Positions 12,354-30,967 of a stretch of DNA of 55,006 nt are shown here, piece by piece. The DNA is from Candidatus Cloacimonadota bacterium (lineage in GTDB: Bacteria; Cloacimonadota; Cloacimonadia; Cloacimonadales; TCS61): positions 1 to 55,006 of the forward strand of contig JAUVLU010000016.1 of assembly GCA_030600585.1 (NCBI GenBank), written 5' to 3'. The translations under genes were made by a program, and so were the position numbers. The stretch's first letter is position 1, and each line of letters starts with the position of its first letter. The notes beneath the pieces are model-generated. The model worked only from the letters and a program-made list of their open reading frames with translations, had not been told where the DNA came from and made no database searches.

Positions 12354-12464
12354 TTTCCCTCACAAAAAAAAAGCCTTCACTTTCGTTAAAGGCTTTCTAT
12401 TATGGCTTCCGGCAGTTGCCGGAGATTTGAACCCCCATCCGGCAACTGCCGGATAACAGTCACC
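12332..12464. repeat. Direct repeat, left copy, flanking the GIY-YIG gene
   Basis: About 133 bp, matching 12691-12822 with three mismatches and one single-base indel. It contains a GIY-YIG start region, a terminator-like hairpin (AAGCCTT...AAGGCTT) and a tRNA-like segment at 12403-12464 holding two copies of the palindrome CCGGCARYTGCCGG. Confidence 0.8.
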
Positions 12465-12712
12465 TATAATGATTTTATTAATTTTCTTATAAAATCTCTG
12501 CCTTTATGTGATTTTAATTCTACTTCTCTTTTCATTACTGCTCTTTTTTCAGAGTATTCCTCTTTATGTATTAATTTCCAGGGACGATAATTGATTGTCC
12601 ATCCCTTCTTTGCTAATTTGTTATGAGATAATAATCGTTGTTCTAAATCTGAAGTATATCCAATATACAGCTTATCATATCTCTCTGAATATAAAACATA
12701 AACAGTAAACAT
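12464..12712 (-). CDS. Small GIY-YIG endonuclease-domain protein
   Basis: 82 residues forming a complete minimal GIY-YIG domain: VYVLYS (GIY strand), YIGYTSDLEQRLLSHN (YIG plus the Arg/His helix), then WKLIHKEEYSEKRAVMKREVELK. Single-domain proteins of this type are cut-and-repair or selfish nucleases of unclear role. GAGGG lies just before the ATG. The start is only ~18 bases after a terminator-like hairpin. The TAG stop overlaps the edge of a tRNA-like repeat. The gene lies between two ~133-bp direct repeats and next to tRNA-Asn, in an arrangement mirrored at 30.5 kb. A mobile cassette is a reasonable inference. Confidence 0.85.
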   Translation of the reverse strand: MFTVYVLYSERYDKLYIGYTSDLEQRLLSHNKLAKKGWTINYRPWKLIHKEEYSEKRAVMKREVELKSHKGRDFIRKLIKSL

Positions 12713-12822
12713 TTTCCCTCACAAAAAAAAGCCTTCACTTTCGTTAAAGGCTTTCTATTATGGCTTCCGGCAGCTGCCGGAGATTTGAACCACCGTCCGG
12801 CAACTGCCGGATAACAGTCACC
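12691..12822. repeat. Direct repeat, right copy, flanking the GIY-YIG gene
   Basis: Right partner of the repeat at 12332-12464. It includes the real GIY-YIG start codon, a hairpin at 12730-12754 and a tRNA-like segment from 12761. Confidence 0.8.
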
Positions 12823-12828
12823 CGCTCA
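12761..12828 (-). pseudogene. tRNA-Asn-like fragment invaded by palindromes
   Basis: Read on the minus strand, this segment keeps pieces of the adjacent tRNA-Asn: GAGCGGGTG, CTGTTA, the T-loop GGTTCAAATC and a terminal GCCA. The anticodon-stem and acceptor-stem positions are occupied by the 16-bp palindrome TCCGGCARYTGCCGGA. It cannot fold as a normal tRNA. A second, nearly identical fragment lies at 12403-12464. It looks like a decayed or engineered-by-recombination copy of the tRNA 3' half. Confidence 0.6.
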
Positions 12829-12830
12829 TT

Positions 12831-12862
12831 CAAAAAAAAGGCTTCCAAAAATGGAAGCCTTT
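12831..12862 (-). terminator. Terminator downstream of tRNA-Asn
   Basis: Stem GGCTTCC/GGAAGCC with a 6-base loop; on the minus strand it is followed by a run of T. It sits 5 bases after the tRNA-Asn 3' end. Confidence 0.8.
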
Positions 12863-12866
12863 ATTA

Positions 12867-12941
12867 TGGCTCCTGAAGAGGGATTTGAACCCCCGACCTA
12901 GTGGTTAACAGCCACCCGCTCTACCGCTGAGCTATTCAGGA
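12867..12941 (-). tRNA. tRNA-Asn (anticodon GTT)
   Basis: 75 bases including an encoded CCA. The 7-bp acceptor stem TCCTGAA/TTCAGGA is perfect. The D-arm is GCTC...GAGC, the anticodon loop CTGTTAA is closed by GGTGG/CCACT, and the T-arm GGGGG/CCCTC holds loop TTCAAAT (one G-U pair). All four stems are sound, so this is the functional copy beside two degenerate relatives. Confidence 0.95.
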
Positions 12942-17566: not shown

Positions 17567-18394
17567 ATGAATATTTTAAATTTTGGAGATTGTATAAAAA
17601 ACGGTAATTACAAACTGCACTCCAACTTTAAAAGCGTTCATAATTATACAAATGATAAAGAAATTGTTTCTCTTGTTTCTACTGAAATCGGCAGGGGACC
17701 CAATAATATTGTTTTGAATAATTTCCCTCAGCAGACGGAACAAACTCTAACCATCGCCAAATCCACACTTTCCATCGGGAATACAGCCATTCATATTGCT
17801 CCGGCAGAACCACAAATTAAACCGGATTTATATATAAACAACATATCCGATTTGTTATCCCGAATTGAAATATTGTCAGATAATATCTCAGATAAAATGC
17901 TTCCAAAAAGTCTGGGATTCTTATTATTCCCCGATAATGAAATATTCTTCAAAACCACTTTTGAGAAAGCATTTCTTGCTCACGTAAAACAAACAATTCA
18001 AAATATTTCTTTAGAAAATCTTCCAGAAATTGCCAAAAAGATGAAAGGTGTTGGATTCGGTCTAACTCCCAGCGGAGACGATTTTAATTGCGGAATTTTG
18101 TATGCGCTGAATTATCTTAATGAAATTGATAACAGAGATTTTTCTGAAGTAATTGAAAATTGCTACTTTGAATCTATCGGTAATAATTTGATCTCAAACA
18201 CCTTCCTGAAATTCGCCTATTTAAACCACTATTATGAAAATTTTTATGAACTATTAAAAACATTAAAAGAAAATAATGAAATATCACATTATGCAGAAAA
18301 GATAATCAATTCCGGTCACACATCCGGTTCTGATATGTTAACGGGATTTATTCTGACAATTAAAGGAGTTCTGAATGATAAAAAGTTTAATTAA
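17567..18394 (+). CDS. allH: DUF2877 protein, oxamate carbamoyltransferase AllH-like subunit
   Basis: 275 residues. It contains the family hallmark GVGFGLTPSGDDFNCG and a C-terminal HTSGSDMLTGF, both typical of DUF2877 (AllH/YlbF). In E. coli, AllF, AllG and AllH form the oxamate carbamoyltransferase complex converting oxalurate and phosphate to oxamate and carbamoyl phosphate. All three homologues are consecutive here, so a carbamoyl-transfer complex is well supported. Which ureido acid it uses is not. GGGG lies 4 bases before the ATG. The 3' end overlaps the fdrA-like gene by 20 bases. It is the first gene of the cluster. Confidence 0.75.
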   Translation: MNILNFGDCIKNGNYKLHSNFKSVHNYTNDKEIVSLVSTEIGRGPNNIVLNNFPQQTEQTLTIAKSTLSIGNTAIHIAPAEPQIKPDLYINNISDLLSRIEILSDNISDKMLPKSLGFLLFPDNEIFFKTTFEKAFLAHVKQTIQNISLENLPEIAKKMKGVGFGLTPSGDDFNCGILYALNYLNEIDNRDFSEVIENCYFESIGNNLISNTFLKFAYLNHYYENFYELLKTLKENNEISHYAEKIINSGHTSGSDMLTGFILTIKGVLNDKKFN

Positions 18395-19925
18395 AAAAGG
18401 TGAGTATTTTGATTCCGTGAGTCTGATGATCGTGGGAAAAAATGTCGCTCAAATGGATGATGTTATAGATGCAACTGTTGTGATGGCAACTCGGGAAAAT
18501 AAATCGATTCTCAAAACTGCCGGACTCTATCTAAACGAATTTGAAAAATACGATGATACGGATCTATTGATCGTGATTAAATCTGATAATGAAGATAAAT
18601 TTGATGAGATATTTGAAAATGTGGACATCTTATTAAAAGAGATCCGAAATAAGAAAGATGATCACGGAACTTTCACTCCCAAAAGTCTGGATGGTGCGCT
18701 TCAAATTCAACCGGATTCAAATCTTGCACTCATCTCTTTAGCTGGAAGATATGCCGGAAATGAAGCGATGAAAGCTTTGAAAAAAGGTTTGAACGTAATG
18801 CTCTTTTCCGATAATGTTCCGCTGGAAACAGAGATAGAATTAAAGAAATATGCGCTTGCGAATGATCTGCTGGTGATGGGACCAGACTGTGGAACAGCAA
18901 TTATCAACGGTGTTCCTTTAGCATTTTCTAATGCTGTAAATAAAGGGAATATTGGCATTATTGCAGCTTCCGGAACTGGTTTACAAGAAGTCAGTTCCAT
19001 TATTTCGGAAGAAGGTTTTGGTATTTCTCAAGCAATTGGAACCGGCGGACGTGATATAAAAGAAGAGGTTGGCGGAATGATGTTCATATCTTCTTTGGAA
19101 GCTCTGAGAGATGACGAAAATACCAAAGTGATAGTTCTCGTTTCCAAGCCTCCTCATCCTACAGTTCTTAAAAAAATAAATGCTAAACTCAAAGAAATCT
19201 CTAAACCGGTTGTCAGTATTTTCCTCGGTGCAGATAAATATTTAATTGAAGAAAGCGGTGCATTTGCAGCCGAAACATTAGAAGAAGCTGCTCTCTTGGC
19301 TTGTGCAATTTCAGGAAATTTTGAAACTTCTAAAGTAAGCAAATTCCTTGAAGAAAGAAGATCAGATTATAAGGTGATCGTTGATAATGAAGTGAAGAAA
19401 ATATCTTCGGACAGAAAATATATCCGCGGATTGTTCAGCGGTGGAACTCTTTGTGATGAAGCTCAGATCATTCTAAAAAAGGATATTGAAAATATTTTCA
19501 GCAATAGATCCGGCGATGAAAAATATGCATTAAAAGATTCCTGGCTGAGCAAAGAACATACATTGGTCGATCTCGGTGAAGATGAATTTACAGTTGGCCG
19601 TCTGCATCCAATGATGGATTTTGATCTGAGAAATAAGCGAATTATTCAGGAAGCAAAAGATAAAGAAACCGCCATAATTTTATTTGATCTTGTGCTGGGA
19701 TATGGTGCCAACGCCGATCCCATTAACGAAATTCTTCCAATAATAAAAGAGGCAAAAAGAATTGCTAAAGGCATCTCCTTCATCTGCTCTGTAACCGGAA
19801 CCGAGCAAGATCCTCAAAACAAAAGTAAGGTAATTGAGATATTAGAAAAAAATGATATTCTCGTTATGCCTTCAAATGCTGCTGCTGCAGAAATTGTTAA
19901 CTTGATAATAAGAGAGATTAAATGA
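18375..19925 (+). CDS. fdrA: FdrA-like protein, carbamoyltransferase AllF-like subunit
   Basis: 516 residues with the layout of FdrA/AllF: two succinyl-CoA-synthetase-like Rossmann portions. The first carries SGTGLQEVSSIISEEGFG and GTGGRDIKEEVGG; the second starts RGLFSGGTLCDEAQ and includes VLGYGANADP. E. coli FdrA is about 555 residues. The start at 18375 has AAGGAG 6 bases upstream, inside the preceding gene, so translation is coupled. It probably carries the active site for phosphorolytic carbamoyl transfer together with the AllG/AllH-like partners. Confidence 0.85.
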   Translation: MIKSLIKKGEYFDSVSLMIVGKNVAQMDDVIDATVVMATRENKSILKTAGLYLNEFEKYDDTDLLIVIKSDNEDKFDEIFENVDILLKEIRNKKDDHGTFTPKSLDGALQIQPDSNLALISLAGRYAGNEAMKALKKGLNVMLFSDNVPLETEIELKKYALANDLLVMGPDCGTAIINGVPLAFSNAVNKGNIGIIAASGTGLQEVSSIISEEGFGISQAIGTGGRDIKEEVGGMMFISSLEALRDDENTKVIVLVSKPPHPTVLKKINAKLKEISKPVVSIFLGADKYLIEESGAFAAETLEEAALLACAISGNFETSKVSKFLEERRSDYKVIVDNEVKKISSDRKYIRGLFSGGTLCDEAQIILKKDIENIFSNRSGDEKYALKDSWLSKEHTLVDLGEDEFTVGRLHPMMDFDLRNKRIIQEAKDKETAIILFDLVLGYGANADPINEILPIIKEAKRIAKGISFICSVTGTEQDPQNKSKVIEILEKNDILVMPSNAAAAEIVNLIIREIK

Positions 19926-20119
19926 ATTTCATCGAATTGAATATTTTTTGTCATCCTGATCCCGAAAGCTTTCGGGACACGTTGTTCTTTGGAAGGATCT
20001 CTGCATATAATGAGACTTGTCCGCTGTGGTGGATTCTTCGTGAGAAATTTCTTCCAAGATTTCCTCAGAAAGACAGAATTTTTTCATTATTGGAAGATCA
20101 CAAAAAATTAAATAAATAG
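19922..20119 (+). repeat. Intergenic repeat element carrying a 65-codon ORF
   Basis: The insert between the fdrA-like and DUF1116 genes opens with an ATGA overlap and reads 65 codons, but its composition is that of a common intergenic repeat, not a protein. It holds TCATCCTGATCCCGAAAGC, the 18-bp palindrome centred on CCCGAAAGCTTTCGGG (19961-19976), GGATCTCTGC, GATTCTTCG and CCTCAGAAAGACAG. Similar TCATCCTGA/GATTCTTCG/CTCAGAATGACA elements are scattered in many bacterial genomes. I treat the ORF as incidental. It separates two subunit genes without obviously breaking the operon. Confidence 0.65.
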
Positions 20120-20129
20120 AGGAGGAAAT

Positions 20130-21539
20130 ATGGGATTTAAGAAGTTATTCGGTAAGAAGGTGGAAGTTGTTAATATCGGTCTGGATACTTTTAAAGATGA
20201 TCTTGGAAAACAGGGAGAAAAAGTTACCAATGTAGAATGGACTCCGCCTGCTAACCTTGATAAAAATATCTTGAGGATATTACAAGAAAACAAAGCAATA
20301 ATTGAGACTGCCAACGAAAAAGCATTGGAGATAATTTTAAATGGAAAACCATTTCTCGTTGGTCTCGATATAGCCGGAAATGTAATTCCCGGAATGAAGG
20401 AAAATCTTCTTCTTCATTCAGGTCCTCCGCTAACCTGGGATAGAATGTGCGGTCCGATGAAAGGTGCGATGATCGGTGCAATGATCTATGAAGGAAAAGC
20501 TAAAGATTTTGCCGAAGCGGAAAAGTTGGGAGCTTCCGGTCAGTTTGAGTTTTCACCTTGTCATGAGCATAATACGGTTGGTCCGATGGCTGGAGTTGTT
20601 TCTGCCTCGATGCCGGTTTTTGTTCTTAAGAATGAAGAATACGGCAATTTTGCTTACTGCACACTTAATGAAGGTTTAGGAAAAGTTCTTCGTTACGGAG
20701 CTTATGATCAGCAGACTATTGAAAAACTGAAATGGATGGAAAAGGAACTTTATCCAACTCTGAAGAACGCTGTAGAATTCATCGGGAAAATTGACTTGAA
20801 AAACATAATCGCACAAGCATTGCATATGGGAGATGAAGTTCACAATCGTAACCGAGCCGGAACATCTCTTTTTTACAGAACAATAGCTCCGGCAATTGTG
20901 CAGACTTGCAAAAAACCTGAAGTTACAGCAAAAGTCCTCGATTTCATTAATGGGAACGATCACTTCTTCCTGAATCTTTCCATGCCGGCTGCTAAGGTAA
21001 CTCTGGATGCTGCCAGAAACATAAAAAATAGCAGTATCGTAGTGGCGATGACCAGAAATGGAACCGATTTTGGTTTGCAGCTCGCCGGGACAGGAAATTC
21101 ATGGTTTGTTGGAAAGGCACTTGTTCCCGATGCTCTCTATTTCCCCGGATTTACAAAAGATGATGCCAACCCCGATATTGGAGATAGTTCCATTACAGAA
21201 ACAGCAGGTCTGGGGGGATTTGCCATCGCAGCATCTCCTGCTATCGTACAGTTTGTGGGCGGTTCAGCCTCCGATGCTATAAATTATACAATGACAATGT
21301 ATGAGATCACATTCGGTGAAAATAATATATATCAGATCCCGTATTTGAATTTCCGTGGAACACCAACCGGAATCGATGTAACAAAGGTTGCGGAAAAGGG
21401 AATTCTTCCATTCATCGATACAGGAGTTGCACATAAAGATCCGGGTATCGGACAAGTTGGAGCAGGTGTATTAAGTGCACCGATGGAACCGTTTATAAAA
21501 GCAGCAACCGGTTTAGCAAAGCAATTAAGTATAAAGTAG
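20130..21539 (+). CDS. allG: DUF1116 protein, oxamate carbamoyltransferase AllG-like subunit
   Basis: 469 residues, full length for DUF1116 (YlbE/YahG/AllG). Recognisable blocks are TNVEWTPPANLD near the start, AGNVIPGMKENLLLHSGPP, CGPMKGAMIGAMIYEG, FSPCHEHNTVGPMAGV and VARNGTDFG-like VAMTRNGTDFG. GAGGAGG precedes the ATG. With the AllH- and FdrA-like genes it completes the three-part carbamoyltransferase. No carbamate kinase, the enzyme that would turn carbamoyl phosphate into ATP, is present in this window. Confidence 0.85.
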   Translation: MGFKKLFGKKVEVVNIGLDTFKDDLGKQGEKVTNVEWTPPANLDKNILRILQENKAIIETANEKALEIILNGKPFLVGLDIAGNVIPGMKENLLLHSGPPLTWDRMCGPMKGAMIGAMIYEGKAKDFAEAEKLGASGQFEFSPCHEHNTVGPMAGVVSASMPVFVLKNEEYGNFAYCTLNEGLGKVLRYGAYDQQTIEKLKWMEKELYPTLKNAVEFIGKIDLKNIIAQALHMGDEVHNRNRAGTSLFYRTIAPAIVQTCKKPEVTAKVLDFINGNDHFFLNLSMPAAKVTLDAARNIKNSSIVVAMTRNGTDFGLQLAGTGNSWFVGKALVPDALYFPGFTKDDANPDIGDSSITETAGLGGFAIAASPAIVQFVGGSASDAINYTMTMYEITFGENNIYQIPYLNFRGTPTGIDVTKVAEKGILPFIDTGVAHKDPGIGQVGAGVLSAPMEPFIKAATGLAKQLSIK

Positions 21540-21576
21540 TGTAACATAAATTATGAAAGATTATGAAAAGTTGGAA

Positions 21577-21917
21577 AACCTTCGGAACGGTTTTATACCT
21601 TCCGAATGGTTGAAAAATCAGCAAACCTTCATCCGACATGATCTCGATGACTTAACACAAAATCTTCCGGCTTCATATATTACGCCGTGACAGGTCGGCT
21701 TGTGCCAAGTCTTAGAAAAAGTAATTCGAGATTCCAATCTCGAAATTGTAAAATATCTCAACATTGGAATGTTGAGTTACAAGAAAAAACAGATATAAAA
21801 TTAGCTGACTTTCCGAAGCTTCTCACAAAGGGATACTTACATTTAAGATTCGGAAAGTTTTAGCTTATTCGTAACCTTCCGAATCTTAATAAGAAAGGGC
21901 GAAAGAAAGCTTCGGAA
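21577..21917. repeat. Array of nested palindromes inside the catabolic operon
   Basis: The 399-base gap between the AllG-like and cyclase genes holds several clean dyads. 21577-21611 has AACCTTCGGAA against TTCCGAATGGTT. 21725-21744 has TTCGAGATT/AATCTCGAA. 21757-21776 has CTCAACATT/AATGTTGAG. A nested pair has outer arms TTCCGAAGCT at 21811 and AGCTTCGGAA at 21908, and inner arms AAGATTCGGAA at 21845 and TTCCGAATCTT at 21877. Several share a TTCCGAA core, suggesting repeat-derived sequence; processing or attenuation roles are possible. No gene is seen here. Confidence 0.6.
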
Positions 21918-21938
21918 GGTAAATAAAAGGAGATTATT

Positions 21939-22751
21939 ATGAAACCACAAGAATTTTTAGAGTTTATGGACAGTGTAAAAGTTTATGACCTTACACAAAG
22001 ATTGAGTATTCACACACCACCATGGCCAAGTTATATGCCGCTGCAAATTCAGTATTTTAAAAGATTAGCAGGTGCTCATATGGGACAGGGTGCAAATGGA
22101 CAGATCATAAAAAGCAGTAATCATGTTGGAACTCATATCGATGGTCAAATTCACTTCTTTGCGAGTGGAAAAACTATCGGAGAAGTGCCGATCAATGATT
22201 GGATCGGGCAAGGCGTGGTTGTAGATATTTCTGATGAAGTCTCAGATTATTCACTTTATACACCCGAAATGCTGATGAGCAAAGTGGAAATTAAAAAAGG
22301 CGATATACTCATCATCAATACCGGCTATCACAAATATAGCTGGGATCAACCTGAGTCTGATGAAGTCCGCTATTTCGTGAAACATCCCGGACCAAGCCCG
22401 GAATTTCATCAATGGGCATTGGATATGAAGATCAAATGGATTGGTGTGGATTGCGGCAGTGCAGATCATCCGATGAATACGATCATTCGTGACTGGCATC
22501 CAAGACCTTTCAAAGAAGCTGAGAAGAAATTGGTTGAGAATTATGGCAAAACCTGGGATGAAATGTTCCCATTAGAAGAATTTTATCAGGTCATGCATTT
22601 AAATCTTTTCCCAAAAGGATTACTTCACGCAGAAAATTTGGGCGGCGAGATCAACAAAGTTAATAACAAACGTGTTTGGATAGGATTGTTCCCTCTGCGC
22701 GGAATTGAATTGGAATCTTCCATGTGCCGAATAATCGCCATGGAAGCGTGA
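21939..22751 (+). CDS. Cyclase-family metal-dependent hydrolase
   Basis: 270 residues. It contains the metal-binding block SNHVGTHIDGQIHFF, matching the HxGTHxDxPxH motif of the cyclase/kynurenine-formamidase/isatin-hydrolase family. Further on are GDILIINTGYHKY and WIGVDCGSADHPM. Known members open cyclic or acyl amides. The usual Pro between the Asp and the last His is Gln-Ile here (DGQIH), a small deviation. AAGGAG precedes the ATG. In this cluster it could open the oxidised heterocycle made by the Mo-hydroxylase next door. Substrate is inferred from context only. Confidence 0.8.
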   Translation: MKPQEFLEFMDSVKVYDLTQRLSIHTPPWPSYMPLQIQYFKRLAGAHMGQGANGQIIKSSNHVGTHIDGQIHFFASGKTIGEVPINDWIGQGVVVDISDEVSDYSLYTPEMLMSKVEIKKGDILIINTGYHKYSWDQPESDEVRYFVKHPGPSPEFHQWALDMKIKWIGVDCGSADHPMNTIIRDWHPRPFKEAEKKLVENYGKTWDEMFPLEEFYQVMHLNLFPKGLLHAENLGGEINKVNNKRVWIGLFPLRGIELESSMCRIIAMEA

Positions 22752-22837
22752 TGAAAATATAGAATATCTCTGCATAAATTTCTGTAGAGGTTCTCTTGTT
22801 TTAAAAGAATATTTGCACAAAATAAAAAGGAGTTATT

Positions 22838-23701
22838 ATGGCTATATTAAACGACTTTGAATACCATAAGCCAAAAGATATTAACGAAACCTTTATCCTG
22901 CTTTCAGAATACAAGAATAAGGCGACAATTTTGGCTGGAGGAACCGATCTGATAGTTCACCTGAAAGAAGGAATAACAAAACCGGAAGTGGTTATCGATA
23001 TTAAAGGAATTACCGAACTAAATAAAATTGATATTTCTGAAGATACCATTTTTATTGGAGCCGGCATTACTTTCACAGAAATTATTGAATCACTTGAGCT
23101 TAAAGAAAAGTTACCAATTTTATGGGAATCAAGTATAAAGGTTGCTTCGGTAGGAATAAGAAATCGGGCAACATTAGTTGGCAATATCTGTTCAGCAGTT
23201 CCCAGCCTTGATTCTGCGCCGGCACTGCTTGTGTATGATGCAGAAGTAGTTGTTCAGAATAAAACCGGTAAAAGAACTATTTCTATTCATGACTGGTTTA
23301 TCGGACCTAAAAAAACAATTTTAAATCCTGATGAGCTTGTATTGGGAATTAATATTCCAATTGTAAAACACGCAGGAGTTTATGAAAAATTGGGACGTTA
23401 TAAAGGTGAGGATCTGGCTCAAGCTGGAATTGGCATTTTTGTTGATGAAACAAAGAATTACAGATTTGCCTATTGTGCAGTAGGTCCCGTTCCAAAGCGA
23501 ATGAAAAAACTGGAAGATTTTCTGCAAGGCAGAGAAATTTCGGATAAATTACTCGAAGAAGCTTCCCAGCTTATTCCTGATGAAATATCTCCAATTTCAG
23601 ATATCCGCTCCTCGGCTGAATATAGAATTCATATGATGAAGATCATGTTCAAGCGCGGTTTACAGAAATCCGTTGCGATCTTGAAAGGTGGTAAATCATG
23701 A
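22838..23701 (+). CDS. Mo-hydroxylase FAD-binding subunit (XdhB/CoxM-like)
   Basis: 287 residues. It has the FAD-binding loop ATILAGGTDLIVHLKEG, the second FAD contact NRATLVGNICSAVPSLDSAPALL, and a C-terminal CO-dehydrogenase-flavoprotein-type domain. Length is normal for the separate FAD subunit of xanthine-dehydrogenase-family enzymes. AAAGGAG precedes the ATG. The next gene starts on an ATGA overlap, so the three subunits are translated together. It accepts electrons from the 2Fe-2S subunit. Confidence 0.88.
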   Translation: MAILNDFEYHKPKDINETFILLSEYKNKATILAGGTDLIVHLKEGITKPEVVIDIKGITELNKIDISEDTIFIGAGITFTEIIESLELKEKLPILWESSIKVASVGIRNRATLVGNICSAVPSLDSAPALLVYDAEVVVQNKTGKRTISIHDWFIGPKKTILNPDELVLGINIPIVKHAGVYEKLGRYKGEDLAQAGIGIFVDETKNYRFAYCAVGPVPKRMKKLEDFLQGREISDKLLEEASQLIPDEISPISDIRSSAEYRIHMMKIMFKRGLQKSVAILKGGKS

Positions 23702-24165
23702 AAAAGATAACATTAACATTAAATGGCGAATTGCGAAGTGTTTATGTGGAACCGGAAGAAATTTTGCTTGATGTTCTGCGCGAAAAACTTGGCGTGAAAA
23801 GTCCAAAATGCGGTTGTGACCGTGGAGATTGCGGAGCATGTGCAGTACTTTTAAATGGTAAAAGTGTAAGAAGCTGTTTGGTTCTGGCAATTGAAACCGA
23901 TGGGCAGAAAATTGTTACAGTTGAGGGAATTTCCAAAGACGGTCTTACCAAAGTTCAAAACACCATGCTCGATAAAAATGCTTTCCAATGCGGCTTTTGT
24001 GCACCGGGCATGATAATATCGACCACAGAATTATTAGAAAAAAATCCTCATCCGAATTTAGAAGAGATCAAAGAAGCTCTTTCGGGGAATTTATGCCGGT
24101 GTACCGGCTATCTGCCGATTCTGGAATCAGTACAGGAAGCAACTGAGGAGGTTGACCATGAATGA
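23698..24165 (+). CDS. Mo-hydroxylase 2Fe-2S subunit (XdhC/CoxS-like)
   Basis: 155 residues with both iron-sulfur clusters of the family. The plant-ferredoxin-type cluster is CGCDRGDCGACAVLLNG...SC. The second all-helical cluster is CGFCAPGM with CRCTGY. All eight Cys are present. It carries electrons from the molybdenum site to FAD. The start overlaps the FAD-subunit stop (ATGA), and its own stop overlaps the large-subunit start by 8 bases. Confidence 0.92.
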   Translation: MKKITLTLNGELRSVYVEPEEILLDVLREKLGVKSPKCGCDRGDCGACAVLLNGKSVRSCLVLAIETDGQKIVTVEGISKDGLTKVQNTMLDKNAFQCGFCAPGMIISTTELLEKNPHPNLEEIKEALSGNLCRCTGYLPILESVQEATEEVDHE

Positions 24166-26503
24166 TCTAAAATATGTTGGAAAACCATCAGTTCGAATCG
24201 ACGGTAAAGAAAAAATATCGGGAGTAACCCGTTATACAGATGATCTGGAATTCGGGCCAAATCTTCATTTTGCTGCAATTGTAGAAAGCACAGAAGCTCA
24301 TGCAAAAATATTAAGTATCGATACAACCGAAGCTGAAAACTTTCCCGGTGTGGTCAGCATTTTTACAGGAAAAGATTTCCCATATAAATTCGGTTTATAC
24401 ATGAAGGATAGATACATTTTTGCTATGGATACAGTTCATTACGTGGGACAGCAAATTGCAGCAGTAGTTGCAAGAGATATTAAGACAGCCCAGAGAGCAG
24501 CAAAACTTGTAAAAGTAGAATACGGGCCATTACCGGCAATCTTCGATCAAATGGAAGCATTTAAAGAAGATGCACTTCTTATTCATCCCGATCTTGGCGA
24601 ATATCCACATGTTCCATGGTTTTTTCCACAAGCAAAAACCAATATTGCTCACTGGCGTAAAACCAGGCGTGGTGATGTGACAAAAGGATTTGAAGAAGCA
24701 GATTATATTCTGGAAGACACTTATACTGTTCCCCGCTATGCGCATTGCCCGTTGGAAACTCATGTTGCATTTGGATTATGTGATCTTTCCGGCAGGCTGA
24801 CTATATGGGCTTCATCTCAATCACCTCATACACAGAGAAACTTATTCGCCGAATCTCTTGCACCACTCGGATTTACCCATAAGGATATTCGGGTGATTGC
24901 ACCACCAATTGGAGGTGGATTTGGTGGGAAAGCAGGTGTTTCAATGGAAATTCTGGCAGCAGCAATTGCCACCAAAGTAAGAGGGAATCCTGTAAAAGTA
25001 ATCTGGTCTCGCGAGCAAGAATTCTATAACACTTCCCAAAGATTGGGTGTAATTGCTAAGTTGAAGATCGGTGTGAAAAATGATGGGACATTCACGGCAA
25101 TCGATCACAGACTTTACTGGGATACAGGCGCTTCTGCAGAATACGGAGCAAATGTTGTTAATGCAGTTGGACTTTCTGCGATCGGTCCTTACCGTTTCCA
25201 TAATATTTCGATCGATTCAGTTTGTCTTTATACCAATCTTCCACCTTGCGGAGCTTATCGTGGATTTGGTTATTCCGAGTTTATGTTCGGTTTGGAATCA
25301 CACATAAATCGAATAGCCGATCATCTAAATATTGATGCTGTAAAGATAAGAAAGATAAATGCAATAAAGGAAAACGATACTTTAGCTTATGGAGTTCCTA
25401 TGAATCCAAACGGGCTTCTGGAGTGTATTGATAAAGTTGCAAAAGAGATAGAATGGGGAAAAGAGGTAAAATCTGATGATCCGAATACAAAAATTGGGAA
25501 AGGTTTCTCTCTTATTTGGAAAGCTCCCGCCATGCCGCCCAATGCTTCGTCCGCAGCATTCCTGAAATTCAGTGAAGACGGCAGCATAAATATTCTGGTT
25601 TCCGGAATGGATATGGGACAGGGCTATCTCACTGTAATGGCTCAAATTGCCGCTGAAATTCTAACAGTTCCAATTACTAAAATTCGTACTGAAAATCCCG
25701 ATACTGATAGAAATCCTTACGAATGGCAGACAGTAGCATCTCACGTAACTTGGTCTTGTGGAAACGCAGTTCGGAAAGCTGCAATCGATGCCCGAAACCA
25801 AATATTTGATGTAGTTTCCAGAACTCTCTATCTGCCAAAAGATATGCTGTATCTCGAAGATGAGAAAGTAAGATGTAAAACAAAGCCAAGTTTTGAACTG
25901 CCGTTAAAAGATTTTGTGATCAACGGAATAATGGCGGAAGACAGCACTTTCAAAGGTGGTCCAATCATGGGACATGGAATTTTCATGCCGGAATTTACTT
26001 CTGCCAACAGCGATCCAGAAACAAGTCAGGGTGGTCATCCAAACGTTCACTACACAGTTGGTGCTGCTGCTGTCACATTGGAAGTAGATAAAGATACCGG
26101 TGAAATGCATGTGAAAAAAGTTGTGGAAGCTATCGATGTGGGAAAAGCTATCAACCCGTCTCTGGTAAATGGACAGATCACAGGCGGTCTGTTGCAAGGA
26201 CTTTCTACAGTGCTATATGAAGATATGCGATTTGATGATAAAGGGAAAATGCTTAATCCGAATTTTACAGATTATAAAATTCCTACAGCAAAAGATGTGC
26301 CCGATGAGATCGTACCGATAATTGTCGAAGTTCCTCAACCCGATGGTCCTTTCGGTGCTCGTGGAGTTGGTGAACACACAATGATCCCGGCTGCTCCCAT
26401 GATTGCAAATGCTGTGAATGATGCTCTTGGGATCAGGATCAAATCTATGCCTATCACAAAAGAAAAAGTTGCATTGGCAAACTTGAAGAAAGAGGAGAAA
26501 TAA
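24158..26503 (+). CDS. Mo-hydroxylase catalytic subunit (xanthine dehydrogenase family)
   Basis: 781 residues. It shows GGGFGGK (molybdopterin contact), PPCGAYRGFGYSE (substrate Arg region), a Gln-rich SGMDMGQGYLT block, and the C-terminal GARGVGEHTM with the catalytic Glu. So an active hydroxylase is expected. ATG 24158 is chosen over TTG 24152 because GAGGAGG sits 6 bases upstream of it. Family members oxidise C-H next to ring nitrogen in purines, pyrimidines, nicotinate or CO. The residues visible do not fix the substrate, but neighbours point to a nucleobase. Molybdenum-cofactor maturation genes are not in this window. Confidence 0.88.
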   Translation: MNDLKYVGKPSVRIDGKEKISGVTRYTDDLEFGPNLHFAAIVESTEAHAKILSIDTTEAENFPGVVSIFTGKDFPYKFGLYMKDRYIFAMDTVHYVGQQIAAVVARDIKTAQRAAKLVKVEYGPLPAIFDQMEAFKEDALLIHPDLGEYPHVPWFFPQAKTNIAHWRKTRRGDVTKGFEEADYILEDTYTVPRYAHCPLETHVAFGLCDLSGRLTIWASSQSPHTQRNLFAESLAPLGFTHKDIRVIAPPIGGGFGGKAGVSMEILAAAIATKVRGNPVKVIWSREQEFYNTSQRLGVIAKLKIGVKNDGTFTAIDHRLYWDTGASAEYGANVVNAVGLSAIGPYRFHNISIDSVCLYTNLPPCGAYRGFGYSEFMFGLESHINRIADHLNIDAVKIRKINAIKENDTLAYGVPMNPNGLLECIDKVAKEIEWGKEVKSDDPNTKIGKGFSLIWKAPAMPPNASSAAFLKFSEDGSINILVSGMDMGQGYLTVMAQIAAEILTVPITKIRTENPDTDRNPYEWQTVASHVTWSCGNAVRKAAIDARNQIFDVVSRTLYLPKDMLYLEDEKVRCKTKPSFELPLKDFVINGIMAEDSTFKGGPIMGHGIFMPEFTSANSDPETSQGGHPNVHYTVGAAAVTLEVDKDTGEMHVKKVVEAIDVGKAINPSLVNGQITGGLLQGLSTVLYEDMRFDDKGKMLNPNFTDYKIPTAKDVPDEIVPIIVEVPQPDGPFGARGVGEHTMIPAAPMIANAVNDALGIRIKSMPITKEKVALANLKKEEK

Positions 26504-27694
26504 ATGCCTAAACCATTAGAAGGAATTAAAGTTCTTGATCTTACCCGTGTTCTTGCAGGTCCTTTTTGTACAATGGTATTAAGTGATCTGGGAGCTGAAG
26601 TTGTTAAGGTGGAAATACCAAAATTTGGTGATGATGCCAGGCATTTCGGTCCTTTTAAAAACAAACAAAGCCTGTATTTTCTGAGTTTGAATAGAGCAAA
26701 GAAAAGCATAACTTTGAATCTTAAAACATTAGAAGGAAAGACAATCCTGAAAGATCTGATCAAAGATTTTGATGTTCTGGTAGAAAACTATCGACCTGGC
26801 ACTATGGAGAAATTGGATTTGGGATATGATGTACTTAAGGAAATCAATCCTAAACTTATCTATGCTGCCTCTTCCGGTTTTGGTCATTTCGGACCTGATT
26901 CCAAAAAACCGGCTTATGACCTTCTTGCTCAGGCAAGAGGTGGAATAATGAGCATTACCGGCTGGCCTGATACTCCTCCTACAAGAGTCGGTATGTCCAC
27001 CGGTGACATAACAGCTTCGTTATTCACGGCAATCGGGATAAGTTCCGCTCTTTATCAAAGAGAAAAAACAGGGCAAGGGCAAAAAATAGATGTAGCCATG
27101 CTGGATTGTCAGGTTGCAATATTGGAAAATGCTCTGGCTCGTTATCAGACGGAAGGCATATCGCCCACACCGCTCGGTAACCGTCATCCCACGGTAAGTC
27201 CATTCCAGGCATTCATGGCTAAAGATGACTACTTTGTACTTCCTATTGGGAATGATAATCTCTGGGTTAAATTCTGTAATGCTGTTGGTAAAAATGAATG
27301 GGGCACAGATAGAAAATTTGTTACAAATGCAGTTAGAAATGAAAATCTGGAAATTCTAACCCCTTTGCTTGAAGAACTATTTTTAACTAAAAATGCTTCC
27401 GAGTGGATTGAACTAATCGAGGAATACGGCGTTCCTTGCGGTCCAATAAATACAATAGAAAAAGTAATGAATGACGAGCAAATACATGCCAGGAATATGA
27501 TCGTGGAAGTGAATGATGACCGAGCCGGTTCTATCAAAATTGCCGGCAACCCTATCAAGATGACATCGATTCCAGAAGAGAAAAAACGCGGATATGTACC
27601 AAAACTTGGTGAGAATACAAAAGAAGTGCTTGGAAAGTATCTGGGTTTCGATGAGAAAAAGATAAAACAATTGAAAGAAGATGGTGTGATCTAA
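26504..27694 (+). CDS. Class III (CaiB/BaiF) acyl-CoA transferase
   Basis: 396 residues, standard length. It has the N-terminal KVLDLTRVLAGPFCTMVLSDLGAEV block, ENYRPGTMEKLDLGYDVL, and the catalytic Asp at about residue 201 in VAMLDCQ, matching Asp169 of formyl-CoA:oxalate transferase. It begins directly after the Mo-hydroxylase stop codon. It moves CoA between carboxylic acids. In this cluster a dicarboxylate such as malonate or oxalate, released from the ring-opened base, is a logical acceptor (inference). Confidence 0.85.
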   Translation: MPKPLEGIKVLDLTRVLAGPFCTMVLSDLGAEVVKVEIPKFGDDARHFGPFKNKQSLYFLSLNRAKKSITLNLKTLEGKTILKDLIKDFDVLVENYRPGTMEKLDLGYDVLKEINPKLIYAASSGFGHFGPDSKKPAYDLLAQARGGIMSITGWPDTPPTRVGMSTGDITASLFTAIGISSALYQREKTGQGQKIDVAMLDCQVAILENALARYQTEGISPTPLGNRHPTVSPFQAFMAKDDYFVLPIGNDNLWVKFCNAVGKNEWGTDRKFVTNAVRNENLEILTPLLEELFLTKNASEWIELIEEYGVPCGPINTIEKVMNDEQIHARNMIVEVNDDRAGSIKIAGNPIKMTSIPEEKKRGYVPKLGENTKEVLGKYLGFDEKKIKQLKEDGVI

Positions 27695-28981
27695 ATGAAG
27701 TTTATTTCGGAATGTTCTTTGTCCAAAATAATTTCTCAAATACAAAACAAAGAACTTTCTCCTGAAAAATTGATCGATGAACTATGTGATAAACTGGAAA
27801 AATGGGATTCTATGATAAAAGCATTTCTGCCGGAAACTAACCGACGGGAACGTTTACAGCAAGATTTAAAGAAGCTTTATCACAAGTTTCCTGAACCGCA
27901 AGATCGACCTATTCTGTTTGGAATTCCTGTTGGAGTCAAAGACATTTTTCATGTCGATGGTTTTGAGACAAAAGCAGGTTCAAGGCTGCCGTCAGAAATT
28001 CTTCAAAGTAAAGAAGCTGAAGTTGTTTCCAGACTAAAACAAGCAGGTGCCTTGATTATGGGAAAAACCGTAACCACCGAATTTGCTTATTTCTATCCCG
28101 GAGCAACCTGCAATCCGCATAATTTTGATCATACACCGGGCGGATCGAGCAGTGGCTCAGCAGCAGCAATTGCAGCCGGATTCTGCCCCTTAACGTTAGG
28201 AACTCAAACTATCGGTTCAATCTCTCGCCCTGCTGCTTTTTGTGGAATAACAGGTTTCAAACCAAGTTTCGGCAGGATTTCTACGTATGGAGTTATTCCA
28301 TTTTCACACTCTGTTGATCATATCGGTTTTTTTACTCAAGATATGGAAGGAAGCGAAATCATCGCTTCAATTCTTTGCGATAATTGGAATAATGATCTTC
28401 CCAAAATTGAGGAAAAACCTGTGTTAGGAATTCCTGAAGGTAAATATCTTTCTCAAGCATCATCGGAAATTCTCTCTGCCTTTTTTGAAACTGTTGAGAA
28501 GTTGAAGCAAAAAGGTTTTACCATTAAATCAGTTCCTGCTTTTAATAATATCGATAAGATCAATGATAAATATAAGTTGATGAATGCAGCAGAATTTTCA
28601 GAAGTTCATAAAAACTGGTTTAAAAAATATAAAAGCGATTATCACCAAGCTTCTATCGATCTAATTGAAAAAGGGAAAAGTGTTCCAAAAGAAGTTTTGA
28701 ATAATGCAATAAAAGGCAGAATACAGCTTCGAGAAGAGTTGGAACAATTGCAGAAGGAAAATAGGATTGATCTCTGGATTTCTCCTTCCGCTGTTACAAC
28801 TGCTCCCTGCGGCTTAGATTCTACCGGAGATTCGGCAATGAATTTGCCTTGGACTTATGCAGGTGTTCCAACAATATCTATCCTATTTGGACTATCCGGT
28901 GAGCTGCCTTATGGTATTCAATTTGCTGCCAATTATTATCAAGATGAAACTTTATTTAAATTAATAAAGAGAGTTGTATGA
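27695..28981 (+). CDS. Amidase-signature family hydrolase
   Basis: 428 residues. The Ser-cisSer-Lys triad is visible: Lys82 in GIPVGVKD, Ser151-153 in GGSSSGSAAA, and the nucleophile Ser175 in TIGSISRPA. The last is a variant of the usual TGGSIR, with Ile for Gly and Ser for Arg. The family includes malonamidase E2, allophanate hydrolase and GatA. No other Gat subunit is present, so a catabolic amide hydrolase is more likely than GatA. It follows the CoA-transferase with no gap. Malonamate or oxamate are candidate substrates from context. Confidence 0.82.
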   Translation: MKFISECSLSKIISQIQNKELSPEKLIDELCDKLEKWDSMIKAFLPETNRRERLQQDLKKLYHKFPEPQDRPILFGIPVGVKDIFHVDGFETKAGSRLPSEILQSKEAEVVSRLKQAGALIMGKTVTTEFAYFYPGATCNPHNFDHTPGGSSSGSAAAIAAGFCPLTLGTQTIGSISRPAAFCGITGFKPSFGRISTYGVIPFSHSVDHIGFFTQDMEGSEIIASILCDNWNNDLPKIEEKPVLGIPEGKYLSQASSEILSAFFETVEKLKQKGFTIKSVPAFNNIDKINDKYKLMNAAEFSEVHKNWFKKYKSDYHQASIDLIEKGKSVPKEVLNNAIKGRIQLREELEQLQKENRIDLWISPSAVTTAPCGLDSTGDSAMNLPWTYAGVPTISILFGLSGELPYGIQFAANYYQDETLFKLIKRVV

Positions 28982-29106
28982 ACGAAAATTTAATATCGAA
29001 AGCCAAATCTTTCGCTGGAAAATTGAGAGGGAATAAGTTCCAAAAATGTTTTTTTGCTTGCCAAAGGATTATGCTTAATCTCTTTTTGCGAGAGTTGATG
29101 TGTTAA
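28978..29106 (+). CDS. Possible 42-residue ORF coupled to the amidase stop
   Basis: An ATG overlaps the amidase TGA (ATGA) and opens 42 codons, starting MNENLISKAKSFAGKL and ending at TAA 29104. It is basic with three Cys. No family is recognised. It could be a real small protein, the truncated start of a lost gene, or chance. The rest of the gap to the permease has no other feature. Confidence 0.25.
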   Translation: MNENLISKAKSFAGKLRGNKFQKCFFACQRIMLNLFLRELMC

Positions 29107-29177
29107 TTTAGTAATTTTGGTACTAATGGATAATTATTCATTAGATTGATGTGCAAAAAAAAATGTAAGGAGTTTCT

Positions 29178-30419
29178 ATGAAAGATCTTAACGGCAAAAA
29201 TTTTGTTCTTGGTTTTCAACACATGTTCGTAATGTTTGGTGCTACTGTTCTAGTCCCATTAATTACAGGGTTGGATGTGGGAGTAACACTTTTCGCAGCA
29301 GGTATTGGTACGCTTCTATTCCATGTCCTCACAAAATTTCAGGTACCTGTATTCTTAGGTTCATCTTTTGCTTTTATACCTGGTATAATCGCTGTTGCAA
29401 CAGCTGAAGGTGGTTCATTACCGGAAGCATTAGGTGGAATTGTAATCGCTGGTCTATTATATGTTGTTGTGGCTATTATTTTTAAATTTATTAATGTGCG
29501 AATATTACATAAGATCCTGCCGCCATTTGTTACGGGTCCGATAATTATTCTTATCGGTTTGATCCTTGCACCGGTTGCTATCAATAATGCTAACGGAACT
29601 TATGCAGCTGGTATTGTAGAAAAAATAGGTGTAAATGGTTGCTGGCTTGTTGCATTATTTACATTTGCAGTTGCAGTTTTCGTTAGAGTCTTCTTTGAGA
29701 AAAAAGGAGCAAAATTATTATCTATGCTTCCGGTTCTTATTGCCCTCATTGCCGGATACATATTTGCAATTATCCTTGGAATAGTAGATTTTACAGCTGT
29801 AAAAGAAGCTGCCTGGTTTGGTCTGCCTAAATTCTCTTTACCTATATTTTCTACACGCTCAATGTCAATAATTGTGCCGATAGCAATTGTTACTATTGTA
29901 GAACACTTTGGCGATGTTCTCGCTATCGGAAATGTTGTTGGAAAAGACTTTATTAAAGAACCCGGTATCCATAGAACATTATTGGGTGACGGACTTGCCA
30001 CATCTCTTTCCGCTATGATCGGTGGTCCTGCCAATACAACATACAGCGAAAATACCGGTGCTGTTGCTCTTACAGGAGTTTTCAATCCTGTTGTTATGAG
30101 GATTGCTGCTGTGTGCGCTATTGTACTCTCTTTTGTACCTAAATTCACCTCGATAATTGGTACTATCCCTGGTCCTGTTATTGGTGGAATTTCTATACTT
30201 CTATTCGGTATGATCTCATCTATCGGTATTAAAAATATGGTTGATAATAAAGTAGATTTCACTAATGCAAAGATCCTTATGATCACTGCTGCTATGCTTG
30301 TTCTGGGATTAGGTGGAGCTGAATTTGCTATTGGAAACTTCCATTTAGTTGGTTTAGGTCTTGCCGCTGTAGTCGGTATTCTTCTTAATCTTATTTTAAA
30401 TTTCAAAGAGATTAAATAG
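29178..30419 (+). CDS. NCS2-family nucleobase permease, probably uracil type
   Basis: 413 residues with 12-14 hydrophobic segments. The start GFQHMFVMFGATVLVPLITGL is the TM1 Gln-His region of the NAT/NCS2 family. TM10 carries NTTYSENTGAVALTG. UraA/PyrP-type uracil permeases carry NTTYGENIG at this place, while xanthine/urate permeases usually have SQNxG, so uracil is favoured. It closes the catabolic cluster and is followed by a terminator. Nucleobase:cation symport across the inner membrane is the known family function; specificity here is inferred. Confidence 0.85.
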   Translation: MKDLNGKNFVLGFQHMFVMFGATVLVPLITGLDVGVTLFAAGIGTLLFHVLTKFQVPVFLGSSFAFIPGIIAVATAEGGSLPEALGGIVIAGLLYVVVAIIFKFINVRILHKILPPFVTGPIIILIGLILAPVAINNANGTYAAGIVEKIGVNGCWLVALFTFAVAVFVRVFFEKKGAKLLSMLPVLIALIAGYIFAIILGIVDFTAVKEAAWFGLPKFSLPIFSTRSMSIIVPIAIVTIVEHFGDVLAIGNVVGKDFIKEPGIHRTLLGDGLATSLSAMIGGPANTTYSENTGAVALTGVFNPVVMRIAAVCAIVLSFVPKFTSIIGTIPGPVIGGISILLFGMISSIGIKNMVDNKVDFTNAKILMITAAMLVLGLGGAEFAIGNFHLVGLGLAAVVGILLNLILNFKEIK

Positions 30420-30456: not shown

Positions 30457-30494
30457 AAAAGCCATTTCTGCAAAAGCGGAAATGGCTTTTTTCT
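30457..30494. terminator. Terminator after the permease
   Basis: Stem GCCATTTC/GAAATGGC (extended by an inner GC/GC) with A-run before and T-run after. It can therefore act on both the permease and the minus-strand GIY-YIG/tRNA unit. Confidence 0.85.
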
Positions 30495-30499
30495 TAATA

Positions 30500-30572
30500 T
30501 GGTGGGCCCAAGAGGAATCGAATGAGCCTATGGCTCACAAGCTTTACCAGCCTCCGGCTGGCTCTGACCGTC
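30500..30572 (-). pseudogene. Duplicated tRNA-Met 3' end interrupted by two hairpins
   Basis: 30500-30522 is an exact copy of the 3' end of the tRNA at 30892-30914, including CCA. 30562-30572 matches its next 11 bases (30916-30926). Between them, where the tRNA has a single base, lies a 39-base insert made of two perfect dyads, TGAGCCTATGGCTCA and CCAGCCTCCGGCTGG. The C-terminal codons and stop of the GIY-YIG gene run through this insert. A second Asn-type example at 12.4-12.8 kb has the same logic. Confidence 0.75.
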
Positions 30573-30797
30573 TTCAAACTTATCAAGCCAAGCTCTACCA
30601 ACTCCACTTTTGAGATATTTTTCATATTGTCTGGCAATGTTATAATCTGGAAATTCCTTTGTGTAAATTAGTTTGAACTCACCAATAACCTGGCTTCCTT
30701 TTGATGATTTCCGTTTATGTTCTGCTAACCTTCGTTCAAGATCATTTGTTATACCAACATATCTCTTTGTGCCCTTCAAAACATAAACAGTTATCAA
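30528..30797 (-). CDS. Small GIY-YIG endonuclease-domain protein
   Basis: 89 residues from a TTG start. TVYVLKGTKRYVGITNDLERRLAEHKRK holds the GIY and YIG (here YVG) strands and the catalytic Arg helix. EKYLKSGVGRAWLDKF is a later helix typical of YhbQ-like single-domain members. TTG 30797 is preferred because AAGGAG ends 6 bases before it; an ATG at 30803 touches the Shine-Dalgarno. The last ~14 codons are the tRNA-like, hairpin-invaded repeat, so the C-terminal tail is probably not part of the fold. The gene lies between tRNA-Met and a duplicated tRNA 3' end. Confidence 0.82.
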   Translation of the reverse strand: MITVYVLKGTKRYVGITNDLERRLAEHKRKSSKGSQVIGEFKLIYTKEFPDYNIARQYEKYLKSGVGRAWLDKFEDGQSQPEAGKACEP

Positions 30798-30810
30798 AAT
30801 CATCTCCTTG

Positions 30811-30844
30811 AAATAAAAATGCCATCCTGCTACCGCAAGATGGC
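30811..30844 (-). terminator. Terminator between tRNA-Met and the GIY-YIG gene
   Basis: Minus-strand stem GCCATCTTGC/GCAGGATGGC (one mismatch) with loop GGTA, then ATTTTTATTT. The GIY-YIG start follows within 15 bases, the same order as at the tRNA-Asn locus. Confidence 0.75.
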
Positions 30845-30891
30845 TTATATGGTTTACCAAGGCGTAGTCCCAATTAATTTGGGACGAAGAC

Positions 30892-30967
30892 TGGTGGGCC
30901 CAAGAGGAATCGAACCTCTGACCGTCCGGTTATGAGCCGGAAGCTCTACCAACTGAGCTATAGGCCC
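30892..30967 (-). tRNA. tRNA with CAT anticodon (elongator Met or Ile2)
   Basis: 76 bases with encoded CCA. The acceptor GGGCCTA/TGGGCCC has one G-U pair. The D-arm is GCTC...GAGC, the anticodon loop CTCATAA is closed by TCCGG/CCGGA, and the T-arm AGAGG/CCTCT holds loop TTCGATT. The paired first base (G1-C72) rules out initiator tRNA. Elongator Met and lysidine-modified Ile2 share this anticodon in the gene; I cannot separate them by eye. Confidence 0.93.

Follow-up and report, generated by a model that had tools for sequence, protein, structure and literature searches.

Small GIY-YIG nuclease genes dedicated to individual tRNA genes in Cloacimonadota and related bacteria: a probable family of homing-type elements

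Free-standing GIY-YIG enzymes linked to tRNA genes are already known in phages. SegB of phages T4 and T6 is a free-standing GIY-YIG homing endonuclease encoded in the tRNA region (PMC13096335; PMC2988022); it cleaves inside tRNA genes at the motif RAWTSGAAC, which is the T-loop sequence in reverse complement, and causes the nuclease and the tRNA to be amplified together in tandem (PMC13096335). Free-standing GIY-YIG enzymes are reported to be inefficient at cleaving their donor alleles (PMC13096335). A different type of tRNA disruption, by a recombinase element, has been described for the tRNA-Thr gene of Caldiarchaeum (PMC3293823). In the open-licence literature on GIY-YIG and tRNA genes in Bacteroidetes, Cloacimonadota and bacterial genomes, SegB was the sole close match, and a chromosomal, tRNA-dedicated GIY-YIG family with palindrome-replaced tRNA copies was not found there.

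The 55,006-bp stretch of a Cloacimonadota genome that was analyzed here (the window) carries on its minus strand a compact unit bordered by an intact tRNA-Met gene on the left and by a broken copy of the same gene on the right:

30892..30967, minus strand: intact tRNA-Met(CAT) gene whose CCA is encoded, forming the left border of the unit (ARAGORN; Rfam RF00005, 72.7 bits)
30861..30891, minus strand: palindromic module GTCTTCGTCCCAAATTAATTGGGACTACGCC, immediately 3' of the CCA (sequence)
30816..30844, minus strand: terminator-like hairpin GCCATCTTGCGGTAGCAGGATGGC, then a T run (sequence)
30804..30809, minus strand: Shine-Dalgarno-like AAGGAG (sequence)
30528..30803, minus strand: GIY-YIG nuclease ORF, 91 aa from ATG, with an alternative start TTG at 30797 (PF01541)
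30606-30776, minus strand: GIY-YIG domain of this ORF (PF01541)
30500..30618, minus strand: broken tRNA-Met copy, alignable to tRNA positions ~7-76 and overlapping the 3' end of the ORF
30562..30572, minus strand: GACGGTCAGAG, 11 nt identical to the tRNA, preceding the insert
30523..30561, minus strand: 39-nt insert CCAGCCGGAGGCTGG + TAAAGCTTGT + GAGCCATAGGCTCA with two palindromes, splitting the T loop between G and TTCGATTC
30547-30561, minus strand: palindrome CCAGCC-GGA-GGCTGG of the insert
30523-30537, minus strand: palindrome TGAGCC-ATA-GGCTCA of the insert
30500..30522, minus strand: 23 nt identical to tRNA-Met positions 54-76, forming the right border of the unit
30457..30499, minus strand: native flank and terminator, found directly 3' of the tRNA-Met CCA in the empty-site relative G006 (alignment)

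As the first-pass annotation had claimed, the exact copy of the tRNA 3' end and the tRNA itself enclose the GIY-YIG gene, the CCA of the copy lying 392 bp after that of tRNA-Met, and the match to the tRNA resumes for 11 bases beyond the two-hairpin insert in the T arm. The broken copy proved to be more extensive than first noted, with most of the tRNA being alignable and with a 14-nt exact match to the D arm at 30590-30603, within the 3' end of the ORF. Because the 11 tRNA bases and the D-arm match both lie inside the 3' end of the ORF, the ORF terminates within the broken tRNA copy, so that the proposal that the C-terminus and stop codon of the nuclease are encoded by an invaded tRNA copy also stands; the stop codon falls inside hairpin 2 and, in relatives, likewise in the hairpin region. 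A module like GTCTTCGTCCCAAATTAATTGGGACTACGCC is found 3' of tRNA-Met in genomes G015 and G021 as well, and other Met units possess a hairpin and a T run at the position equivalent to GCCATCTTGCGGTAGCAGGATGGC. The ORF is outside any host ORF and is not within an intron or an intein; an Rfam scan of locus L018 retrieved tRNA only, with no intron or other known RNA family, and a group I intron in the tRNA gene was rejected on these grounds. Elsewhere in the window (17567-30419), the ORF translations, judged by eye, resemble a purine/hydantoin breakdown operon with FdrA-like and DUF1116-like proteins, a cyclase, molybdenum hydroxylase subunits, a CoA transferase, an amidase and a permease.

The extent of the insert can be read off from genome G006, in which the left flank is 91% identical and the tRNA-Met CCA is followed directly by the terminator and the permease gene that follow the copy in the window. 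This continuity of the flank defines an insert of exactly 392 bp, between the two CCA ends. Hence, occupied and empty alleles exist at the same site: the rpoD/tRNA-Met site is occupied in G000, G005, G010, G013, G019 and G021 and unoccupied in many other genomes, including the clean empty site in this ~90%-identical relative. When occupancy was mapped on the rpoD tree, which is short and poorly resolved, five changes were required, no fewer than with shuffled labels. The annotation had held that the same insert at the same site across distant species would speak against mobility. This was not seen: with a hand-made consensus of the Met-type proteins as the query, the Met-type gene was matched in only 10 of 125 genomes of the phylum, and the weakest of the matches belonged to another family, at tRNA-Ser. 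Of the newly read Met-type loci, two lie behind a called tRNA-Met and one ends in a tRNA-Met copy, its tRNA being uncalled. Such a scattered distribution is not that of a near-ubiquitous, vertically inherited housekeeping gene. The synonymous divergence of the Met nuclease is similar to that of rpoD, or saturated, which makes vertical inheritance with many losses compatible with the data. In addition, the copies carry the host's own tRNA allele (TTCGACTCC in G013, GTCACTCCC in G022), pointing to local duplication or concerted change. Tandem units occur, namely two identical 395-bp units in G021 and three units at the tRNA-Asn locus L295 of Melioribacteraceae.

Two further loci have a different layout: L175 (G010:C236) and L161 (G006:C62) show full-length but hairpin-broken tRNA-Met and tRNA-Asp before the GIY-YIG gene, with no intact tRNA copy within the stretch examined; the broken tRNA of G010 stands at the native place after rpoD.

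The window contains a sister unit, also on the minus strand:

12867..12941, minus strand: tRNA-Asn(GTT) (ARAGORN)
12761..12832, minus strand: broken tRNA-Asn copy 1, 5' of the ORF, with two TCCGGCA..TGCCGGA palindromes
12464..12712, minus strand: GIY-YIG ORF of the Asn unit (PF01541, 56.1 bits)
12403..12464, minus strand: broken tRNA-Asn copy 2, 3' of the ORF, with the same TCCGGCA..TGCCGGA palindromes

The start of a further GIY-YIG copy is seen 3' of copy 2. The architecture that the annotation had ascribed to both loci is shared as far as the recurrent unit is concerned, but not in the placement of the hairpins, which in the Asn unit replace the anticodon arm and an acceptor/T-stem strand rather than the T arm alone. 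The Met and Asn nucleases fall into separate protein clades and therefore represent separate lineages.

The suggestion, derived from these two cases, of a recurrent system rather than an accident is borne out by the genome as a whole. It contains 13 GIY-YIG matches including UvrC, leaving 12 small loci, and 42 tRNA/tmRNA genes (ARAGORN). Six of the 12 small loci are within 200 bp of a tRNA or tmRNA gene (chance P ~2e-10), making up six units, at Asn, Met, Asp, Ala, Ser(CGA) and tmRNA. A genome-wide check for duplicated tRNA ends, as the annotation had advised, revealed exact copies of at least 13 nt outside tRNA genes for only four of the 42 genes, Ser, Asp, Asn and Met, all of them beside a GIY-YIG ORF; partial copies are thus present at 4 of the 6 GIY-YIG-adjoining genes versus 0 of the 36 others (Fisher P=1.3e-4), and a chance origin of the tRNA copies is excluded. 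Two other observations were made in the same genome. The end of L010 and the start of L013 (G000 C16/C15) overlap by ~127 bp and jointly show two tandem GIY-YIG genes behind tmRNA; the assembly breaks at this repeat. At L014 (G000:C82:8400-9600), a GIY-YIG ORF separates an intact NAD-dependent epimerase-like gene from a duplicate of its 5' start, an arrangement with the same logic as in the tRNA-Ser units; a decayed second unit adjoins it.

In a sample of 66 small GIY-YIG loci from 40 related genomes, 29 were within 700 bp of a tRNA or tmRNA gene, on the same strand in every case (tmRNA 6, Met 6, Asn 5, Asp 7, Ser 3, Ala 1, Val 1). In the Ser units, the nuclease is always upstream of the tRNA gene and the broken copies represent the 5' half of the tRNA; in the other units, the nuclease is downstream and the copies represent the 3' half. 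The protein tree consists of clades dedicated to Met, Asn, Asp, Ser and tmRNA/Ala/Val, along with two further clades (19 rows) that have no tRNA within 700 bp, and the clade labels require six changes on this tree, the minimum for seven labels. Several members without a called tRNA are at a contig end or have a displaced partial tRNA before the ORF. The tmRNA/Ala/Val units lack a hairpin-broken tRNA copy. At six loci (L069, L079, L010, L015, L150 and L164), short palindromic modules (TTCTTCGCT... and GTCTTCG...GAAGAC) start exactly after the CCA of tRNA-Met, Ala, Val or tmRNA; they belong mainly to the tmRNA/Ala/Val clade, where they stand in place of the hairpin-broken copy. Relatives of the Ser-type clade were found inside a tyrosine-recombinase-like gene and an S23-type four-helix gene (L157, G025:C220; L145, G013:C21), with inverted repeats at their ends (CCCCGTTGGATT..AATCCTACGGGG and TGCCCCGTGTAATA..TATTACACAGGGCA); these are tiny GIY-YIG elements that interrupt protein genes.

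The phenomenon extends across the FCB group. A GTDB scan with the Asp-type protein as the query yielded 80 loci, in Cloacimonadota, Ignavibacteria, Marinimicrobia, Calditrichota and Bacteroidota, cultured strains included; single MAGs labelled Woesearchaeota and Deltaproteobacteria also match and may be binning errors. A same-strand tRNA is present within 600 bp upstream at 54 of the 80 loci, and in 44 of these 54 an exact tRNA copy of at least 13 nt follows the ORF, as compared to 0 of 54 control stretches (median copy length 17 versus 6). At 54 of the 80 loci, the 170 bp 3' of the match contain a CCCGA..TCGGG palindrome, versus none in 246 kb of control flank. The copies that reach the tRNA 3' end are mostly either 16-18 nt long, corresponding to a break in the T loop, or 26-34 nt long, corresponding to a break at the anticodon arm. 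Among phage and plasmid records, only four phage records and one from a plasmid collection matched, all weakly, along with one related viral contig; a phage or plasmid origin was rejected in view of this near absence.

The direct repeat of a tRNA 3' end, the choice of tRNA and tmRNA genes as targets, and break points in the anticodon and T loops would all be expected if the unit were left over from a tyrosine-integrase element whose attachment site was the tRNA 3' end. We nevertheless regard such an origin as extremely improbable, given that the 392-bp insert holds no integrase or other gene besides the GIY-YIG ORF and that complete nuclease-only units exist in dozens of genomes. Partial 3' ends of tRNA or tmRNA precede the GIY-YIG gene at L148 (G001:C153), L143 (G006:C269) and L170 (G023:C108) and look like attachment sites of later islands in the same tRNA genes; the possible islands at the first two loci appear to be secondary insertions that displaced the tRNA, which again argues against this origin.

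The ORF of the Met unit matches the Pfam GIY-YIG family PF01541 with 46.8 bits (cut-off 22.6), and the catalytic-type residues (Y, Y-x-G, R, H, E) are invariant in the alignment; it is, thus, a nuclease domain of a homing-endonuclease family with an intact catalytic motif. With a dN/dS of ~0.1, the Met nuclease is under purifying selection. The proteins are only 80-91 aa long and have no counterpart of the extra DNA-binding region of SegB-type enzymes; in the comparison with SegB by profiles and length, the match to TIGR01453 was weak, below the cut-off, and that to PHROG 681 partial. By profile similarity, the closest solved structures are UPF0213 proteins and SLX1. This kinship, along with the purifying selection, would fit a domesticated structure-specific nuclease of the Slx1/UPF0213 type residing in a safe spot behind tRNA genes, with the tRNA copies as by-products of recombination. 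Such a domesticated enzyme seems quite unlikely, considering the patchy occupancy, the strict pairing of clade and tRNA, the palindrome-bearing copies across phyla and the related ORFs inside other genes.

The palindromes deserve separate consideration inasmuch as their type and position go with the protein clade and not with the tRNA. Specifically, TCCCGA..TCGGGA accompanies the Asp clade whether the tRNA is Asp, Ala, Gly, Arg, Met or another one. The palindromes of the Asn clade, at tRNA-Asn and tRNA-fMet, are placed one base past the anticodon and read TCCGGCA..TGCCGGA in Cloacimonadota but TCCGCC..GGCGGA in Bacteroidota. In the Met clade, the hairpin beside the 23-nt copy is TGAGCC/GGCTCA, TACGCC/GGCGTA or TGCGC/GCGCA depending on the genome, its pairing being retained despite the change of sequence (G010, G145, G149). 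As in REP/RAYT systems, the palindromes are repeated genome-wide (52 and 32 copies, controls 1 and 0); palindromes of these kinds are also found within other repeats. Their number correlates with that of small GIY-YIG ORFs, tallied by hand (rho 0.74; 0.51-0.68 within the family), a correlation that is confounded by kinship and not significant outside the family. At L181 (G016:C529), tRNA-Met is followed by a copy of itself that carries the Asn-clade palindrome TCCGGCAGTTGCCGGA but by no GIY-YIG gene, possibly a solo remnant. Fold-back repair of local sequence was rejected, by eye, as the source of the hairpins because the stems are not copied from the adjoining tRNA sequence, and it is further disfavored by the recurrence of the stems across tRNAs and phyla.

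These features bring up the main rival to a homing-type element, namely, that the nuclease recognizes palindromes and belongs to a hairpin-handling mobile system, related to its palindromes as RAYT is to REP, with the hairpin-bearing tRNA copy as the mobile end or substrate instead of a destroyed target. The tracking of clade by palindrome, the hairpin pairing that survives sequence change and the correlation in number all favor this possibility. We still consider it unlikely: apart from the effect of common ancestry on that correlation, TCCGGCA palindromes are frequent in genomes without an observed Asn-clade gene, such as G019, the tmRNA/Ala/Val units have no hairpin-broken copy, and the protein is related to Slx1/UPF0213 rather than to HUH enzymes. 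High palindrome counts where the clade is not seen also led us to reject the idea that, across genomes, the palindrome strictly marks a single nuclease clade. Equally doubtful is the specific version in which each GIY-YIG clade and its own palindrome would form a cognate pair, the nuclease placing hairpins and hairpin-bearing tRNA copies in the manner of RAYT.

The hairpins replace the anticodon arm or the T arm, where tRNA-cutting nucleases attack, and the Met insert folds into conserved hairpins, so the target could conceivably be the tRNA molecule, with the enzyme acting as a tRNA-cleaving toxin or regulator and the broken copy functioning as an RNA (decoy or antitoxin). Most copies, however, lack the 5' half, which precludes a tRNA fold, the duplications and empty sites point to DNA, and no GIY-YIG enzyme is known to cut tRNA. 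An RNA target is thus highly unlikely.

The unit is probably a minimal selfish element, that is, a free-standing homing-type GIY-YIG endonuclease dedicated to one tRNA gene, and we favor a chromosomal family of such elements that appear to be specialized on tRNA genes. Recurrence near tRNA genes, clade dedication, the empty site, scattered occupancy, tandem units, purifying selection and the host's own tRNA allele in the copies all count in favor of this reading, and the precedent of SegB leads us in the same direction: the insert in the window splits exactly the T-loop motif whose reverse complement is recognized by that enzyme. We infer the cutting, the cut site, homing, transfer and protection by the palindrome as follows. 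The nuclease would cut the target tRNA gene of an element-free allele in the anticodon arm or the T loop, and repair would copy in the nuclease gene along with the duplicate tRNA end, so that one functional tRNA would always be kept. The extra copy, with a palindrome now in the arm where the cut site had been, would no longer be cuttable. This copy may serve as the right homology arm of the cassette; with tRNA sequence at both borders, the tRNA gene itself could provide the homology, independently of flanks that vary between species. Tandem arrays could arise from repeated breaks and recombination between tRNA copies. Several features count against homing: it is the broken copy that is interrupted, while in the element-bearing allele the intact tRNA remains adjacent to the nuclease gene with no visible protection, although a site wholly inside the tRNA should be cut, and the proteins are small and without a SegB-type DNA-binding region. 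The rpoD-like synonymous divergence of the Met nuclease also counts against it, as do the similar palindromes found genome-wide outside the tRNA copies, which may have been inserted independently of the nuclease units.

Should the homing-type reading be correct, selfish nucleases have settled at many different tRNA genes and at tmRNA throughout a bacterial supergroup with cultured genera among its members (Flavobacterium, Pontibacter, Aquimarina and Mucilaginibacter), each lineage being tied to one or a few genes, and tRNA homing of the SegB type would extend from phages to chromosomes. Natural cut sites, resistant copies with palindrome-replaced arms and comparisons of empty and occupied alleles would be available. 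With these, one could study the persistence of a selfish nuclease next to an essential gene, the multiplication of tRNA-gene fragments and the origin of the short palindromic repeats in these genomes. If, instead, the nucleases handle palindromes, the FCB group would harbor a class of mobile elements in which a GIY-YIG enzyme moves palindromes and tRNA genes are the home.

Each of the known systems shares some traits with these units. Like Slx1 and UPF0213 (reviewed in PMC1564403), the proteins consist of a small single GIY-YIG domain, but the units are site-dedicated, patchy, multi-copy and flanked by tRNA duplications, and other small GIY-YIG clades in the same genomes are not near tRNAs. 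With tyrosine-integrase elements they share the tRNA and tmRNA targets, the 3'-end duplication that preserves the tRNA and the break points in the anticodon and T loops; unlike those elements, they comprise a GIY-YIG ORF alone, without an integrase, in ~0.4 kb. The short genome-wide palindromes, linked in number to a small nuclease family, recall REP/RAYT, from which the units differ by the GIY-YIG protein and by the fixed positions of the palindromes inside tRNA copies. The tRNA-Thr locus of Caldiarchaeum is similar in that a mobile gene separates a full tRNA from a tRNA fragment; it differs in being archaeal and in involving a 1.8-kb recombinase element, intron gain and a single tRNA. The closest parallel is SegB, likewise a free-standing GIY-YIG gene beside tRNA genes, with statistically enriched tRNA proximity and tandem units in common. 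In contrast to SegB, the units are chromosomal, reside in bacteria of the FCB group, each nuclease clade being dedicated to a single tRNA gene or a few of them, carry a tRNA-end copy in which a palindrome replaces an arm, and include a tmRNA-linked clade; the proteins are much smaller, the 91-aa Met nuclease showing, by profile comparison, no homology that includes the C-terminal DNA-binding region of the SegB family proper.
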